Below are positions 15,195 through 57,013 of a stretch of 64,000 bases of DNA, piece by piece. A program made the translations under genes and the position numbers. The first letter of the stretch is position 1, and each line of letters starts with the position of its first letter. Below the pieces are notes generated by a model, which saw only the letters and a list, made by a program, of their open reading frames with translations, searched no databases and was not told the DNA's origin. Source of the DNA: Candidatus Methanosuratincola subterraneus (GTDB taxonomy: Archaea; Thermoproteota; Methanomethylicia; Methanomethylicales; Methanomethylicaceae). The DNA is taken from contig RXGA01000002.1 in assembly GCA_004028775.1 (NCBI GenBank), positions 1-64,000 of the forward strand. Reading direction: 5' to 3'.

Positions 15195-15971
15195 TCAGAA
15201 GGCAGGCGAAGACGAGACGCCCAATTCCCTGCACCGCGCCTGGATCTTTCGGTACACGCTGCGGTAATCGAACGTGGCAATGCTTTCGAAGTAGCTGCCT
15301 GGCATGACGCTCCTGAGCCTGAGGCTGACGAGCGGCTTCAGGTTTATCCTGTCGTAGAGCAGCCTGCTGCCAGACGTTGCCGCAGCCTCCACGATCCCGT
15401 TGATATCATCATCTGAGTCGTTGAACCCGTGGATTATGGGCCCATAGAAGATCCATGTCTTGATCCCGGCCCTGCTCAGTTGACCGATGGCGCGGAGGCG
15501 GGATGCAGGGTCAGGGGCGCCTGGCTCGAACATATCCCTGAACTCCCCCCTCAGCGAAGCGATCGTGAAACCCACCTCGGCTTCCATGCCCCTTAGCACG
15601 TCGAGATCCCTGAGGGCCAAGGGGGACTTTGTCTGGATCGAAACAGGGAAACCCGCGCCCTTGAATATCTCGAGGGCCTCCCTGACGATCCCGAGATCTG
15701 CCTCCAACGGCTGGTATGGATCCGTCGAGGTGCTGATTCCGACTACCCCAGGCTTCGACTTTCTGATTTCAGACCTGAGCTTTTCGAGCACGCCATCCTT
15801 CGCCTCGACCTTGGCTGGCCACCGGGCGAATTTCCCCCTGAACAGGTCTGGGACGTAGCAGTACAAGCAGCCGTGACCGCACCCTACGTACGGGTTGAAT
15901 GTATAGTCAAGACCCGGAAGGCGGCTCCTGGAGAGGACCGTCTTGCACTTTGCGTATGCCCTGGCTGCCAT
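15195..15971 (-). CDS. Radical SAM protein, SplB/Rv2578c-like
   Basis: 258 residues from the ATG at 15971, preceded 6 bases away by GGAGG; the longer frame to 16052 lies inside nreA. The radical SAM cysteines appear in GCGHGCLYCYVPD (C-x3-C-x2-C), and STSTDPYQPLE plus IQTKSP are typical of the SplB/COG1533 group related to spore photoproduct lyase. The substrate is unknown; DNA or nucleotide repair is suggested by the direct coupling to nreA (the ATG overlaps the nreA stop). A short C-terminus ends the protein. Confidence 0.85.
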   Translation of the reverse strand: MAARAYAKCKTVLSRSRLPGLDYTFNPYVGCGHGCLYCYVPDLFRGKFARWPAKVEAKDGVLEKLRSEIRKSKPGVVGISTSTDPYQPLEADLGIVREALEIFKGAGFPVSIQTKSPLALRDLDVLRGMEAEVGFTIASLRGEFRDMFEPGAPDPASRLRAIGQLSRAGIKTWIFYGPIIHGFNDSDDDINGIVEAAATSGSRLLYDRINLKPLVSLRLRSVMPGSYFESIATFDYRSVYRKIQARCRELGVSSSPAF

Positions 15972-17296
15972 CACAGACCTCCTGCCTTGAAGTACTCGTC
16001 CATCCTCCGCTGTAAAAACGAATCCCTCAAGATGGTGCTCTTCGAGATCCACTTCCCAAGAGGCACCCGGAGCAGCCCGCCCAGGTGGCGCAGCGCAGAG
16101 GGGAGGTCGTCGAACTCATTGTGCGGCTTCCTGAACATTGCGCGGACGTTCTCCCTCACGAACCAAACGCCCAACGGGAGCGGGAACTCGGGCATGATCT
16201 CCCTCACCACGAGCGCGGCGGCCTGCCTACGGATCGACTTCAGGTGCTCCGCCACCCCCAGCCTGCACGAGAAGTAGCACCCGCCTATCCCTGGGTATGT
16301 CTTCCTGCCGCCGTACCCCTCATAGTCGCCCTCTACTGCCGCAGAGATCCCTTCCTGGTTCCAGAAGGTCCCCGGGAACCACGCCTCCATCCACTCGAAA
16401 GACCAGGCCCTGGGCAGCAGGATGGCGGCGAATGTGTTGTGCTGGTGCTTCCAGAAGTAGACCTGGTACTTGTCGATCGTCTCATAACTCTTCACCTCGT
16501 CGATCAGCCTCTGCGAGAGGATGCTGTCGACCGCGGTTATGCTCCACCGGGTGGGCACGAGGCGCCTGTTCTTCTGGACGCCGAAGACGCCCATGCTGAA
16601 GGCACGCTGGAGCTTGGAGACCTCCACGCCCGAATTGTAGAGATCGTAGAGGGCTTCTGAAGCCAAGCAATCCCCGTCGTAGAATGCCTTCTCGATCCTG
16701 TGGTCGACCTTGACGGCGGAGATCGAGAATTGCTTCAGGGGCGCGGACGGCCCGAACGGCTGGGAGTTGTCGTCTATCGAGATCCTTCCTGCAGGGGGTT
16801 TGGCGAAAGTGACCTCTGCGTCTGCCGGGGCTGCGCCCATCGAAAGCTCCTGGAGCGAGTCCACGAGGCGCCCTCCCCTCCTTGCGGCGTCCACCTCAAC
16901 CCTTGCGGTCCCCCTCACAAGCGAGTACCTGTAGTTGACGATGGAAGGTATGCTCTCAAATAGCCAGGACTCGGGGACGTCCATCACAGAAGTGTCCCCG
17001 TAAACAGGCGGGACCATGGGCCCTATTGAGACCTTCGGGTACCCGTAGCGACCCACGAAGACCGAAGGCGGGGACGATCCCGAAAGCTCGGTCCTCATTA
17101 CCGCCCCCGAATTGCTTATCAGTGCCCTTGCCTTGAGCTCGATGGGGCAGACCGCCTTCCCGCAGAGGCGCCTCCCGCCCCTGCAGAGTATGCAGAGCGG
17201 GGCGTGCCTGGACCTCACTTCCAATGCCCGAGTGGATACACTGCCCGCTGCCTCTGCAGGCAAGATCTCGCCTATCCAGCCGTACATTTGATGCAC
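15971..17296 (-). CDS. nreA: DNA repair protein NreA
   Basis: 441 residues of the archaeal Nre family. Near the N-terminus is the zinc-finger-like CILCRGGRRLCGKAVCP; then VFVGRYGYPKVSIGP, a family signature. The C-terminus ends QRRMDEYFKAGGL, where QRRMDEYF fits the PCNA-interacting PIP box (Q-x2-aliphatic-x2-aromatic-aromatic). Family members act in repair of DNA damage and bind PCNA through this tail. Start GTG 17296 or ATG 17287; a CTTTTTAATGG promoter element lies about 25 bases upstream. It is the first gene of a two-gene unit with the SplB-like enzyme. Confidence 0.9.
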   Translation of the reverse strand: MHQMYGWIGEILPAEAAGSVSTRALEVRSRHAPLCILCRGGRRLCGKAVCPIELKARALISNSGAVMRTELSGSSPPSVFVGRYGYPKVSIGPMVPPVYGDTSVMDVPESWLFESIPSIVNYRYSLVRGTARVEVDAARRGGRLVDSLQELSMGAAPADAEVTFAKPPAGRISIDDNSQPFGPSAPLKQFSISAVKVDHRIEKAFYDGDCLASEALYDLYNSGVEVSKLQRAFSMGVFGVQKNRRLVPTRWSITAVDSILSQRLIDEVKSYETIDKYQVYFWKHQHNTFAAILLPRAWSFEWMEAWFPGTFWNQEGISAAVEGDYEGYGGRKTYPGIGGCYFSCRLGVAEHLKSIRRQAAALVVREIMPEFPLPLGVWFVRENVRAMFRKPHNEFDDLPSALRHLGGLLRVPLGKWISKSTILRDSFLQRRMDEYFKAGGL

Positions 17297-51646: not shown

Positions 51647-53815
51647 CTAACCCATCCACTGCACCAGGCTTGCCTGCTGCCTGTCAGCGACCTCACCGGC
51701 GCCGATGCTCTCGAATACAACCCTGGCAGCCTCGGTCAAGAGCCTTCCATAATATGCCCTGTCGAAGTTGCCGCTGAAGAGATCCGGGATCCTTACCCTG
51801 CACAAGGGGTTCTGGTGGGAGGCGCTGGATCGGACGAACTCGACCTCTTCGCCTGGAGAGGCACCCTTCCCGAGGGCGAGAAGCTGGAGGGCCGCAGAGC
51901 GCTCAGCTGTGCTCACCTTGTAGGATCCTGGATCCTTCCCCAGGCGCCTCCTGACCACAAGACCTTCCTTGCAGGGCATGCCAGCGCTGATCTCCCTGAG
52001 GGCTCTCCTGAGAAGGACCCTCCCCCGACAGACGCCCAAGGAGAGGACTTCCTCAGAGTCCCTGCAGGAGAAGACCTCCCTTATCAGCCCCTCCTGGAAC
52101 CTCCTAACCACCCCCGGCATGTCCCCCCTCCGCATCTCTATGCCCCGCGCCACGACCTCGCCATCGTAGGTCACGCCGAAGTACCGCTTCAGCGCTGAAG
52201 AGGACGGGTCTCGCCTGAGCCTCGGGAATGCCAAGAACTTGAAGTGGCGGTCGATCGAAATGGAAAGCCCGGTCTCTGACCCAATGGTGCCAGCTAGGTC
52301 CGCGTATTCGGAAATGGACGCGCCTCGCCTGGTAACGAAGATCGAGTCGACATCGGCATAGATAACGCGGAATCCCTTTGCGTCGGCGATCCTCTTGGCA
52401 GCCACCATCGCCTCCCTGGATCTCCGGTTGATCTCCTCGAAGACAACAGGGTTCCCGAAGCGGTTCCTGCAGCACCCCGAGACCCCGTATATAGTGACGA
52501 GTATCATCTTGATCGCGCTTATCCGCTCCTCGCAGAACCTCCGCTCGTCCGTTCCTTCTGCAAGGGTCCTGCGGAGGCGCTTCAGCGCGAGCCGCCTCCT
52601 GAGCCACTCTTCGATCACGGACCCGAGGATCGGCTTGCCCCTGCCGTCGCCGGCGCAGGGGGCCCCTGCATCGCCGGTGCTGCCCCCGCTCCCGTATGGG
52701 CTCTCGTAGCTGATCCCGTCCCTCAGGATCAGGCTGGGGTATTGGGAGTCGAAGTCTAGGGCGGCAACGTTCTCGTAGAGCATTCCCGGTACGGGGGTGA
52801 AGGTGATCCCGCCCCGGTCCCTTGCAGCGAGCTCGCCCAGCGGCCTTGCGCACTCCCTGTAGTCCTCCTCAGGCACCGCATGCCCCTTGCTGATCAGCTC
52901 GAACGATGTCCTGGAGTCGATCGCCCTATTGCTGAGCCACCTCGTCGCCTGCCCCATCGTGGCGAATGCGAACCTGGATCGCTCAACTAGGCCGGCAATG
53001 CCCCACCTGTCGGCGCTGAACCCGTAGAAGACTGAGCCTAGGAAGACCCTGCCCGCTGCAGACCCTTGGAGGCGCTTGTAAGGATCGCCGCACCTCCCCA
53101 GCCTGAGCGGCACCCCTTCCTCCTTTGAAAGCCACTGTATCGAAGGGTAAAACCGCCTGTCCAGATCGGGGATCAGGACGAGGTCAGGATCCTCGGAGGC
53201 GAGATGGTCAAAAAATGATTCCAGGACGTGCGCCTCGCCTCCGGATGCTTCGTACCCGCAGGAAGTGCATCGGACCGACCTCAATTCCCACCGACCGCCA
53301 CGCCTCTCCATCCTGGGGGCGAAAGCAGCCAGGCTGAAGGGCGGAGGCGCCAGCCCCTCCTCGTCATCCAGCTTCCTGACTGCCAGAAGCCGGTCCCCGT
53401 CGAAGTCAGCCTCGACCCTAGAAGTTGGCTCTGCCCTGAGCCTCGTGAAGAGGTAGCGCTGCACGTGGCTGAGGGGAAGGTTGTAGACGGCTTCGACCCC
53501 AGGGATCCGCTTTGCCGCAAAGGCCAGCCTCCGGAGGTGCAGACCCCAAGTCTCTACCTTCAACATCTGCCTGGCGCGATCGCCAAAAGACGGGATTAGC
53601 TCCTCAGCGCAGACCCTCCTGACCTCGGGGCACTCGGAGATCTGGTAAGCGATCCCTTCCTCGCATCCCGGGCTGCAGAGAACATGGAAGAACGGGGCGT
53701 ACTGATCCCTCAAGCGCAGGGCCCGCCCGCCCTCGGTCTTTATCCAGACGACCGCCTCTGTTCCATTGACGTATGCGTCCAATATCCAACCGCGTTCGCG
53801 CCCCAAACACACCAC
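51647..53815 (-). CDS. Divergent family B DNA polymerase (PolB2/Dpo2-like?)
   Basis: 722 residues. The polymerase motifs are kept: motif A ALDFDSQYPSLI, motif B KMILVTIYG (the usual Asn-Ser are Val-Thr), and motif C YADVDSIF with the catalytic Asps. The exonuclease motifs I, II and III are not visible in the N-terminal part. There is a CTSCGYEAS pair near residue 200 where other PolBs have the exonuclease. It may be a lesion-bypass or repair polymerase like the crenarchaeal Dpo2, not the replicase. The GTG at 53815 is uncertain. Element at 53910-54003 is shared with the RadA-like gene. Confidence 0.75.
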   Translation of the reverse strand: MVCLGRERGWILDAYVNGTEAVVWIKTEGGRALRLRDQYAPFFHVLCSPGCEEGIAYQISECPEVRRVCAEELIPSFGDRARQMLKVETWGLHLRRLAFAAKRIPGVEAVYNLPLSHVQRYLFTRLRAEPTSRVEADFDGDRLLAVRKLDDEEGLAPPPFSLAAFAPRMERRGGRWELRSVRCTSCGYEASGGEAHVLESFFDHLASEDPDLVLIPDLDRRFYPSIQWLSKEEGVPLRLGRCGDPYKRLQGSAAGRVFLGSVFYGFSADRWGIAGLVERSRFAFATMGQATRWLSNRAIDSRTSFELISKGHAVPEEDYRECARPLGELAARDRGGITFTPVPGMLYENVAALDFDSQYPSLILRDGISYESPYGSGGSTGDAGAPCAGDGRGKPILGSVIEEWLRRRLALKRLRRTLAEGTDERRFCEERISAIKMILVTIYGVSGCCRNRFGNPVVFEEINRRSREAMVAAKRIADAKGFRVIYADVDSIFVTRRGASISEYADLAGTIGSETGLSISIDRHFKFLAFPRLRRDPSSSALKRYFGVTYDGEVVARGIEMRRGDMPGVVRRFQEGLIREVFSCRDSEEVLSLGVCRGRVLLRRALREISAGMPCKEGLVVRRRLGKDPGSYKVSTAERSAALQLLALGKGASPGEEVEFVRSSASHQNPLCRVRIPDLFSGNFDRAYYGRLLTEAARVVFESIGAGEVADRQQASLVQWMG

Positions 53816-54260
53816 GCCCCCTTGAGCCCCAGCGACCCGTCGGACAGTGCTCGGATGCCGCAGCTCCCATTACAGCGGTTGCCACATTCTTAACTGCTCG
53901 TGATCATTCTGTCACTTTCGCCAAAAATTCTTGGCACTACCATGGAATCAACATTGCACCGGCAAGCCTGGGGCAGGAAACATTTTCGCCCAACAGACTC
54001 TCCAAGGAAAAGTTTGTTTATGAAGATACCTTGATCAACTGGAGTTTTTATTTGCATGCCATGCTTCATTGGTTTTTTGGGATTAGGGAAGCGATCAGGC
54101 AGTACAATCTTGAACGCGCCCGGGATGCGCAGGATTGAAAAAAGATAGGCTGATGAATGCGCCGCATCGAATCATCTCTTTGCGTCAGACGGAAAAAAGC
54201 GTGGTTTGGTTGCACCATTCAGAAAAAAGAAAAATGCAATTGGTTATTTTTGATTGGCGG
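53816..54260. other. polB upstream region, no clear gene
   Basis: A 445-base gap. It holds the element described at 53910-54003. An open frame from 53773 to 54138 on the plus strand has a helical end (MLHWFFGIREAIRQYNLERA) but starts inside polB, has no good ribosome site and crosses the shared element, so I do not call it. The 54140-54260 part is A-rich with no feature seen. Confidence 0.5.
53910..54003. promoter_or_regulatory. Shared upstream element, polB copy
   Basis: Parts, on the plus strand: TGTCACTTTCGCC (53910-53922), TACCATGG (53938-53945), ATTTTCGCC (53982-53990) and CTCC (about 54000). The same parts in the same order lie 23 bases upstream of the RadA-like gene's ORF (56196-56290). 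The two TTTCGC hits are 68-70 bases apart in both. No good TATA box is seen near either gene, so this may include the promoter. Confidence 0.5.
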
Positions 54261-54914
54261 TCATCCCGTCGAGGGTGCGGGAGGGGCGACCGCTGCGGTT
54301 GCGGCTGCGGGGGCTTCTGGCTGTGCCCTTATTTGGAAGAAGGCAATCGCGATCAGGAGTATGGAGATCCAGATTAGAAGGAACCCTATGAGTATGATGG
54401 TAAGGAAAGTTCCAATGAAAAATATCAGCCCTGCTGTCGAGAAGAGCCTGATGCCTGTTTTCTCCGATAGGGCCTTGAACGACCGCCTGGTGAAGAAGCC
54501 GCCTAAGATTGCGGTTATATAAAGTATCACGAGTACAACAAGGATCCCGCCCAATAGGGATAATATTGTGCCCGTTTCCAGGTTAGAGGTGTCTGGCGTC
54601 ATCCCCTGGAGGGCGGTCCAGTCGCCATTCCATCCTGGGAAGATTTCATAAAGAAGTTGGGTCAAGACGGACAAAACAGAAAATAAGGCTACCGCAACTG
54701 CAACTGCCGCGCCAATTATTCCTGCAATTATACCGTATAGGAAATTGTTGAAGATCCTCCTGTCCCCGTATATACTGGCGAAGCCGTACAGCGCGACCAG
54801 AATCAGTATCAGGCCGACAAGCGAAATTACACCCATGTAACGGAACGGGATTACCCCGATGAATAGCAATATCGCACCAACGCCGCCTAGGATCTTGTTC
54901 GATTCGATCGACAT
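54261..54914 (-). CDS. DUF996 membrane protein
   Basis: 217 residues with about six hydrophobic segments and the DUF996 start (SNKILGGVGAILLFIG). The tail is Pro/Ala-rich (QPEAPAAATAAVAPPAPS) and probably disordered. No function is known for the family. The GAGG just before the ATG at 54914 is a good ribosome site. Confidence 0.8.
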   Translation of the reverse strand: MSIESNKILGGVGAILLFIGVIPFRYMGVISLVGLILILVALYGFASIYGDRRIFNNFLYGIIAGIIGAAVAVAVALFSVLSVLTQLLYEIFPGWNGDWTALQGMTPDTSNLETGTILSLLGGILVVLVILYITAILGGFFTRRSFKALSEKTGIRLFSTAGLIFFIGTFLTIILIGFLLIWISILLIAIAFFQIRAQPEAPAAATAAVAPPAPSTG

Positions 54915-55046
54915 CTTTTTTCCTCAATATCATTAGAACACGGATCTTTATTTACCCGTTGGGATCCCGCATGGATGGCTGGAAAAAGCAGGGCGTTTGG
55001 CCAGCAGTTCCAGGATCAGGAGTCGCCCCCTCCCTTCTTTGGGGCA

Positions 55047-55060
55047 GCGACGGGCGTCGC
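55047..55060. terminator. Hairpin downstream of the RadA-like gene
   Basis: GCGACG and CGTCGC flank a 2-base centre (GCGACGGGCGTCGC), 16 bases after the stop at 55076 on the minus strand. On the plus strand a T run (ATTTTTC) follows. It may end one or other message. Confidence 0.3.
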
Positions 55061-55075
55061 ATTTTTCAGGCAACG

Positions 55076-56119
55076 CTAATGGCCAGGCGTCCGATACTCT
55101 AGTGCAGCAACCTTGGCCTCCAATGCTTTTATCCTGGCCTCCTTCTCAGCGAGCTCGCGCTTCAGAGCCTCTATCTCGCCCCTGTTGTGCGCGTTCGCGG
55201 TCAGGTTCATTACATCCAGGGCGATTGGGATCCCGGAGGCTGCCATCGCAGCATACTCCCTGTCCCATGCATCCCGAACCAGCAGTTCAAACCCAGACCT
55301 GTTCTCCTGGCATCTCATAAGCGGCAGGTATGCGCCCCTCAGCGACCCCAAAAGATCCTGGTACGACTGCCTGAATGGCGGGGTTATCCTCCCCATAAGA
55401 TCACCTCCATGCCAATTTTCTGGAAAGGCTATCAGGGCAGATGCGGGCGTTGCCCGGTCGGGGTGCCGCAGGAGCGTCGCGCGGACGCCCCCCTTGACGC
55501 TGCGGAAGTCAACGGCCACCTGTGACAGATCCAAGACCAGGCTGGAGCAGAGCCTGCGGTCTCGGGAGGTGAAGACGGCTGCGGCACCGGTCTCCGAGGC
55601 CAATCTCCACAAGGAGGAGGCGACCAGGTCCATCTCAAAGGAGCCCTCACCCGCCTCGCCCCGGAAAGCCGATATGTCATGGGCTGCGATCAGGGCTGCT
55701 CTCCCGGATTCCCTTACTGCCCTCTCAAGCGCCCCTGCCGCCCAGGGCTGCCTCTCCCTGCTGTATGCTGCGGTGAAGATGATCCTCTCTAGCACTGCAG
55801 TATAGTCGAGACCATTCTGCTTCGCGATCAGGGCTATCCTGCCTGGCGAGATCTCGCTCCTGGTGCCATAGTAGTCGGTGTTGTTCATGTAGGCGACCTC
55901 CCCCCTGGAGCACCCCGCGACCAGGATGTTGTGCAAGAGCGCATCCAAGAACGCAGGGGCGCCCGAGAAAAGGTAGGTGACGCCGCCGCAGATCCCTCCC
56001 ATTAGCGAGTCCAAGGCAGGGCAGCCGGTCATCAGGGGTGCGCCCCGCGGCTGGATCGAGGAGGCCCTGACAAAGCCCGCGCCTCGCAAAGCCGCATCAG
56101 CGTAAGCTTCAGAAGGCAT
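55076..56119 (-). CDS. RadA/RecA-like protein with degenerate Walker A
   Basis: 347 residues from the ATG at 56119 (GGGGGCGGT upstream; the frame opens at 56173). The layout follows RadA/KaiC: LMTGCPALDSLMGGICGGVTYLFSG, but where RadA has GxxGxGKT it has SGAPAFLD, with no Lys. Later ALIAAHDIS and VFTSRDRRL match the Walker B and loop regions. The C-terminal 35 residues form a coiled coil (EIEALKRELAEKEARIKALEAK). It probably does not hydrolyse ATP; it could bind RadA or the polymerase as an accessory. It shares its upstream element with polB. Confidence 0.65.
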   Translation of the reverse strand: MPSEAYADAALRGAGFVRASSIQPRGAPLMTGCPALDSLMGGICGGVTYLFSGAPAFLDALLHNILVAGCSRGEVAYMNNTDYYGTRSEISPGRIALIAKQNGLDYTAVLERIIFTAAYSRERQPWAAGALERAVRESGRAALIAAHDISAFRGEAGEGSFEMDLVASSLWRLASETGAAAVFTSRDRRLCSSLVLDLSQVAVDFRSVKGGVRATLLRHPDRATPASALIAFPENWHGGDLMGRITPPFRQSYQDLLGSLRGAYLPLMRCQENRSGFELLVRDAWDREYAAMAASGIPIALDVMNLTANAHNRGEIEALKRELAEKEARIKALEAKVAALEYRTPGH

Positions 56120-56195
56120 CCCCTGACCGCCCCCTGCACCCCAGCATGCCCTAGCATTGATCCCCAAAGGCAACGCACCGACCAGATTATGGTAT

Positions 56196-56290
56196 TGTCA
56201 CTTTCGCCTAGAAATGCCATTCCAATAACATCAAATTACCATGGCAGGACGGGTGCCGCGCAACAGGATAATTTCGCTGAAGAGTCTCTC
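56196..56290. promoter_or_regulatory. Shared upstream element, RadA-like gene copy
   Basis: Parts: TGTCACTTTCGCC (56196-56208), TACCATGG (56237-56244), AATTTCGCT (56270-56278) and CTCC near 56291. It begins 77 bases ahead of the ATG at 56119. The first 13 bases are identical to the polB copy. Beyond it, TCCCGA is repeated three times near 56305-56323. Confidence 0.5.
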
Positions 56291-56404
56291 TCCGGGTTTG
56301 CCTTTTTCCCGATCCCGATCCCGATCGGGCACAAGCCAAAGGCTCGGGTCGCCTCAGCGCAGCATGGGTTGTCGTTGGAAAATGAAAAGAAGATAAAAAG
56401 AAGG

Positions 56405-56791: not shown

Positions 56792-57013
56792 GAACACCTT
56801 TTTGAGATATATCACACTATGCAGTGGTATTTAAATTTTGTGATAAGTCACTATTTTGGCACTCCCCTCATTGCTGGAAAAAACACAACCACCGAGGGCG
56901 AAAATTGAGCACCCAAATGGCTTCGAGAAAGGGGAATAATTAGCAGCCCATTTAAGCGGCTCCTAAGCGCCATGGGGCGCTTGCAAGCACCGGCCCATTG
57001 CAAAGCGAGACTG

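Follow-up and report, generated by a model that had tools for sequence, protein, structure and literature searches.

The PolB2 (Dpo2) mutasome of archaea is composed of the DNA polymerase PolB2, the RadA-like protein iRadA and PPB2 (Makarova 2014, PMC4104785; Timinskas 2025, PMC11791011). PPB2 is a small helical protein with an MGRT motif at its beginning, conserved Arg3 and Arg9 and a coiled coil at the C-terminus, it is fused to iRadA in some operons with an enrichment of Shine-Dalgarno sequences before the PPB2 part, and the genes of the mutasome are rarely interspersed with others (PMC11791011). The PolB2/Dpo2 of Sulfolobus islandicus is inducible by DNA damage and accounts for targeted mutagenesis; damage-inducible expression and translesion activity of PolB2 are known from the Sulfolobales only (PMC7390963). 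In the literature that we found, transcriptional control of the archaeal response to DNA damage is known mainly from the Sulfolobales, where a DNA damage-responsive element (DDRE), ANTTTC, is carried by the sense strand at about -44 to -39, immediately ahead of the transcription factor B recognition element (BRE), and is bound by Orc1-2 (PMC5817253, PMC9738581). Here we describe a control element of about 100 bp that stands before both polB2 and an iRadA-PPB2 fusion gene in Candidatus Methanosuratincola subterraneus, within the first 64,000 nucleotides of contig RXGA01000002.1 (GCA_004028775.1), which are referred to below as the window. Methanosuratincola is a methyl-reducing methanogen of the TACK archaea (PMC12244365).

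An earlier note, made from the letters of the window, had proposed that a polymerase gene and a degenerate recombinase gene share a duplicated upstream sequence and, with it, their control. When the whole genome (1,512,112 bases) was searched, the 13-mer TGTCACTTTCGCC was found exactly twice, at 53910 and 56196, once upstream of each gene, with two more matches at one mismatch. A second TTTCGC lies at 53984 and 56272, or 74 and 76 bases beyond the 13-mer, and all four ANTTTC hexamers (53914, 53982, 56200 and 56270) are on the plus strand, opposite to the genes, as the note had said. The two 116-bp upstream regions share 68% identity (73 of 108 aligned positions; z = 7.0 against Markov shuffles, none of 5000 scoring as high). 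Another proposed constituent, TACCATGG, was dropped. Its two occurrences, at 53938 and 56237, are 28 and 41 bases from the 13-mer, and when 13 to 23 homologous promoters were aligned it fell on the first conserved ATG in the iRadA promoters and on the second in those of polB2. With unequal spacing and non-homologous position, its presence in both regions is coincidental.

The element of about 100 bp, whose parts are located in Table 1, emerged from an alignment of the iRadA-PPB2 promoters of 11 genomes with the polB2 promoters of five. Its consensus begins with a GAGAGnCTCTC-like box, followed by GGCGAAAnT, a less conserved middle (TTTGATGGTC in many copies) and ATTTnnGGCGAAAGTGAY. The core CGAAANTGA recurs, such that the CGAAAnT boxes form direct repeats 66-72 bp apart. 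The earlier note mentioned neither the distal GAGAGnCTCTC box, nor the conservation of the element in relatives, nor the PPB2 domain described below.

In this genome the element is confined to the two genes. A sequence-only model returned just these two sites and a broader model agreed, with no regulon member beyond polB2 and iRadA-PPB2 detected among the 150 candidates scored of about 300. Model searches of this kind covered 97-150 first-look candidates in each genome, out of up to about 340, and could have overlooked weak sites; those relatives that are metagenome-assembled genomes (MAGs) are fragmentary. The shorter string GCGAAAGTGAY occurs four times in this genome and one to four times per genome across the genus, its non-mutasome matches being mostly intragenic. 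The element is therefore not the common genomic repeat that would have told against the earlier note. A weaker third copy had been suspected near 56843-56863, before a NifX-like gene; four promoter hidden Markov models (HMMs) gave no match there at E values up to 50, and that gene has an ordinary TTTAAATA box.

A non-circular test of the element was provided by held-out HMMs built either without the genus or without the mutasome promoters. A model of 12 sequences from other genera only, and a model of eight sites of other genera at which no mutasome gene follows, each recovered exactly the 53.9 and 56.2 kb positions in the window (E 2e-11 for the former, 3e-9 to 4e-9 for the latter), the next-best window match having an E value of 0.03-0.05. 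Upstream of iRadA the element is present at 12 loci in 11 genomes. Counting all of its sites, it was found in G000, G001, G004-G007 and G009-G015, and not in G002, G003, G008 or G016-G022. Among 40 genomes of the class it is confined to four genera of one family, namely Methanosuratincola and its relatives, and no copy was found outside the family in 18 further genomes of the class.

The distribution of the element follows the arrangement of the genes. Of 11 relatives with an iRadA gene, 10 also have polB2, which bears out the co-occurrence on which the earlier note had made its reading depend. At six loci (G014, G001, G004, G005, G006 and a second mutasome of G009) polB2 comes directly after iRadA-PPB2, and the element stands before iRadA only. 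At five others (G000, G009, G010, G011 and G013) the halves lie 1.3 to 16 kb apart, and the element stands before each; G000 and G009 are near-identical at this locus, leaving four independent separated cases. The polB2-type and iRadA-type copies are each closer to their own type across species than to the other type within a genome, so the second copy did not arise by recent duplication within each genome. Because the element is unique to both genes in the genome, is conserved across genera and tracks the splitting of the operon, the shared control put forward in the earlier note is well supported, and we regard shared cis-control of polB2 and iRadA-PPB2 as near certain. A duplicated promoter that keeps the halves co-regulated after the split is the simplest reading of this pattern; the trees are compatible both with retention of the ancestral state in G014 and with a reversion to it.

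Several further features were observed at these loci. G009, which is nearly identical to the window over its first mutasome locus, carries a further iRadA-PPB2-polB2 operon, complete and with an element of its own (C52:3739-7057), about 58-65% identical to the first and not found in G000. In G010 and G011, iRadA-PPB2 and polB2 have between them an open reading frame (ORF) of about 800 residues for a HerA-like ATPase, and a shorter homologous ORF is present in G013. The DUF996 membrane-protein gene that separates the halves in the window also lies between them in G009, G011 and G013, and is not thought to be part of the mutasome.

Analysis of the translations assigns the two genes to the mutasome. 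In polB2, motifs A (DFDSQYPSLI), B (KMILVTIYG) and C (YADVDS), which were also compared in the relatives, are intact, and the C-terminus resembles a PCNA-interacting peptide (QASLVQWMG). The Pfam DNA_pol_B match covers residues 334-636 only, and by inspection the exonuclease region is degenerate, the canonical ExoI and ExoII residues being absent. We assign the enzyme to the PolB2 type, with a decayed exonuclease domain, from the domain match and motifs. Its closest named relatives are in Methanosuratincola MAGs, with a near-identical copy in M. petrocarbonis V4. In the fusion protein, residues 28-237 match RadA/Rad51 structures in the PDB. LFSGAP replaces the P-loop GxxxxGK[ST], leaving no P-loop lysine, and the N-terminal helical domain is absent, with about 45 residues preceding the RadA/Rad51 domain. 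The PPB2 part went unrecognised in an NCBIfam search. Its GRITPPFR stretch, including Arg3 and Arg9, is identical in all 12 homologues compared, residue 1 differing in three, and a low-confidence structure model made from the single sequence (pLDDT 62) consists of helices only, the C-terminal one being long. PPB2 is probably also made alone, judging from an internal ATG at 55396 behind a Shine-Dalgarno sequence. The corresponding start in G014 (contig C36) is ACG, and free PPB2 may not form there by normal initiation.

PolB2-type polymerase, iRadA and PPB2 are thus all recognisable, and on this basis the pair is assigned to the PolB2 mutasome. The suggestion in the earlier note that an archaeal damage-response analogue of this kind would be new does not hold, as the PolB2-iRadA-PPB2 complex is already published and has been compared with Pol V (PMC11791011, PMC4104785), and the Sulfolobus PolB2 is known to be damage-induced and mutagenic (PMC7390963). 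The complex is known, and what appears to be new is the control element with its logic, no such element being described in the papers on the PolB2 mutasome that we consulted (PMC4104785, PMC11791011).

Table 1 Features of the mutasome locus in the window. Coordinates are those of the window.
Feature	Coordinates	Strand	Basis or remark
polB2	51647..53815	-	722-residue family B DNA polymerase; Pfam DNA_pol_B E 1e-16; PDB matches to archaeal PolB
Control element, polB2 copy (about 100 bp)	53903..54004	-	model matches; held-out HMMs E 2e-11 to 3e-9
Proximal box GGCGAAAGTGACA, polB2 copy (the 13-mer)	53910..53922	-	exact sequence
Distal box GGCGAAAAT, polB2 copy	53982..53990	-	same orientation, 68 bp upstream of proximal box
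GGAGAGTCTGTT, GAGAGnCTCT-type box, far end of polB2 copy	53992..54003	-	conserved in promoter alignment
DUF996 membrane-protein gene	54261..54914	-	Pfam DUF996 E 1e-29; separates iRadA-PPB2 and polB2
iRadA-PPB2 fusion gene	55076..56173	-	365 residues, TTG start; Pfam Rad51 E 8e-5
PPB2 part of fusion	55076..55396	-	106 residues, begins MGRITPPFR
Shine-Dalgarno GGAGGTGAT	55400..55408	-	directly upstream of internal PPB2 start; same or similar in most relatives
Control element, iRadA-PPB2 copy	56183..56295	-	model matches; held-out HMMs E 9e-21 to 4e-9
Proximal box GGCGAAAGTGACA, iRadA copy	56196..56208	-	first G of GCGAAA 34 bases before TTG start
Distal box GCGAAATT, iRadA copy	56270..56277	-	70 bp upstream of proximal box
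GGAGAGAGACTCT, GAGAGnCTCT-type box, iRadA copy	56281..56293	-	promoter alignment

Sites that do not precede mutasome genes were found in genera other than Methanosuratincola. In G015 (C1:46702-47985), whose genome has only an iRadA fragment and no close polB2, the element stands before nreA (Pfam Nre_N/Nre_C), which is followed by an SplB-like radical-SAM ORF. Deletion of nreA renders Haloferax hypersensitive to mitomycin C, and Nre genes adjoin SplB-like genes in diverse species (PMC4929162). This site, in one species, is the only direct tie of the element to another repair gene; the same genome has one further orphan site. In G001 (C5:69133-69342) and G007 (C18) the element precedes a small ORF of C2H2-like zinc-finger type that ends in KPLTLWDLRYGGK, and in both genomes a short CxxCxGxG ORF comes next. 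G001 also has the element before a second zinc-finger ORF, and two unlinked copies (C23 and C11) with a near-identical short ORF, MEHPKTIIYGELYSGQRKKRR, downstream. In G005 (C71:27000-35000) it stands before an ORF resembling an integrase C-terminus, near tRNA-Val and tyrosine-recombinase-like and DNA methylase-like ORFs, where a mobile element possibly makes use of the host switch. The window has its own nreA gene at 15970-17296. As a target shared in Methanosuratincola, nreA was rejected: its promoter is ordinary and holds no element, and one of the one-mismatch 13-mers, at 16802, lies inside its coding sequence.

Taken together, the results suggest the following explanation. The two genes encode the three mutasome parts, as PolB2 and an iRadA-PPB2 fusion from which internal initiation can also yield free PPB2, and the upstream element would be their dedicated promoter/operator, with the distal GAGAGnCTCTC and CGAAAnT box and, 66-72 bp downstream, the proximal GGCGAAAGTGAY box. 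A sequence-specific regulator, most likely DNA-damage-responsive, may bind the repeated CGAAAnTGA core and switch the promoter, whether by activation or by repression. In the ancestral state one element presumably drove iRadA-PPB2-polB2 as a single operon; in the Methanosuratincola lineage polB2 would then have been separated, a second, co-conserved copy keeping their control in common. The identity, uniqueness and conservation of the element, the way it tracks the splitting of the operon, and the fusion were observed directly, while we infer that one regulator binds, that damage induces expression and that events took this order. As a whole, we hold this account of a PolB2 mutasome with a dedicated element, a putative regulator and a split with a duplicated element to be probable. 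Damage inducibility of the element, argued by analogy, seems more probable than not, though we assert it with less assurance.

Several points weigh against this explanation. Damage induction is carried over from the Sulfolobales and from the nreA site of one species, and the nreA of Methanosuratincola itself is without the element. Several secondary targets are short ORFs with no assigned function. No regulator gene was identified, and both Orc1/Cdc6 paralogues occur order-wide and so do not co-vary with the element. A bolder extension can be offered only tentatively, and we doubt it more than we believe it: the family may have a compact SOS-like regulon, in which a damage-sensing factor acts through the two-box element of CGAAAnTGA direct repeats on the PolB2 mutasome and, depending on species, on nreA, on small proteins with zinc fingers and on an integrase-like gene of a mobile element; its boxes would share an ancestral TACK damage-response element with the Sulfolobus DDRE.

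One alternative, which is compatible with the preferred explanation and names the regulator, is that the element is a local form of the Sulfolobus DDRE bound by an Orc1-2-type Cdc6 paralogue. The earlier note had remarked on the likeness of its hexamers to the Sulfolobus motif. That likeness stands as far as the core is concerned, since GAAANT, the reverse complement of ANTTTC, is present in both boxes of almost all 23 copies; it fails in orientation and position, as the hexamer is antisense and its proximal copy, counted from the predicted start, is at about -34 rather than at -44 to -39 upstream of BRE (PMC5817253). A second Orc1/Cdc6 paralogue is present in the genome (C1:67362-68552), Orc1-2 binds ANTTTC in S. 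islandicus (PMC9738581) and orc1/cdc6 genes are enriched near archaeal PolB2 (PMC11791011), but the paralogue also occurs in genomes without the element and its own promoter has none, so that its distribution gives no support to it as a co-varying regulator. The five-letter match may be chance. We consider this alternative unlikely and treat the tie to the Sulfolobus hexamer as a lead.

The position of the proximal box raises a second alternative, a variant core promoter (BRE as GCGAAA, a weak TATA box as GTGAYANTA) that is inherited from a shared promoter ancestor and read by TBP and one of two TFBs, with no damage regulator. At nine or more sites the predicted start codon comes 33-35 nt after the beginning of the box, a distance that corresponds to the BRE/TATA position of leaderless genes. 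Most element sites have no canonical TATA box, several other genes of the window do have one, and the genome contains two TFB genes. Position and the missing TATA box together indicate that the box is a specialised core promoter or else an operator that overlaps one. A core promoter should, however, recur at many genes, while GCGAAAGTGAY and the whole element are as rare in this genome as reported above, and the conserved distal box, 66-72 bp further upstream, has no place in a core promoter and argues for a regulator contacting both boxes. We therefore judge this alternative improbable. That the copies are left over from a recent duplication of an upstream segment and have no regulatory role, as their location 2.3 kb apart on the same strand might suggest, is refuted by the conservation pattern and has very little left in its favour: overall identity is modest beside invariant boxes, the two types are separately conserved across species, and the element precedes unlinked genes in other genera. 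Chance similarity of two upstream regions is practically negligible, for although TGTCACTTTCGCC at up to three mismatches is no commoner in the window than expected (17 against 16.4), the z score of 7 for the full region, the held-out E value of 2e-11 and the presence of the element in mutasome promoters of relatives across genera refute it.

The preferred explanation, a dedicated element switched by a putative regulator, suggests from sequence an undescribed SOS-like switch, and the element opens the damage response of an archaeon other than Sulfolobus to testing. A mutasome-specific cis-element in a genus of which one member, Methanosuratincola petrocarbonis, is available in pure culture (PMC12244365) offers a handle for finding the regulator and allows one to ask whether the Sulfolobus ANTTTC response predates the Sulfolobales. 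The case also illustrates how co-regulation can be kept after an operon breaks, with each half having its own copy of the same control element.

Among known systems, bacterial SOS control, with LexA boxes before umuDC, imuA-imuB-dnaE2 and bacterial polB2 operons, is similar at the level of genome organisation only, in that a small dedicated set of operators governs a translesion polymerase and its RecA-like partner. It differs in that the promoter here is archaeal, the core box lacks the palindromic form of a LexA box and no LexA was seen beside the genes; no homology is claimed. The ImuA-ImuB-DnaE2 system has a family C polymerase, DnaE2, with a Y-family-like ImuB, whereas the polymerase here is of family B, with no ImuB-like ORF between or beside the two genes. 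The Sulfolobales DDRE shares with the present element a short, non-palindromic, TTTC-containing box before repair genes, here as a near-invariant reverse complement. The present element differs in having two boxes, 66-72 bp apart, in an orientation opposite to that of the DDRE and at another distance from the start, and it has one to six sites per genome, whereas the DDRE marks a large set. Closest is the PolB2 mutasome itself, with the same three components, a degenerate RadA without a P-loop, the MGR motif and both arginines of PPB2, an iRadA-PPB2 fusion with an internal Shine-Dalgarno sequence, and a polymerase whose DxD motif is intact as in some TACK members. Its genes are usually, though not absolutely, adjacent in one operon; here the DUF996 gene splits polB2 from iRadA-PPB2 and a copy of the element stands before either half, an arrangement that is a variant of the PolB2 mutasome and not an exclusion from it.

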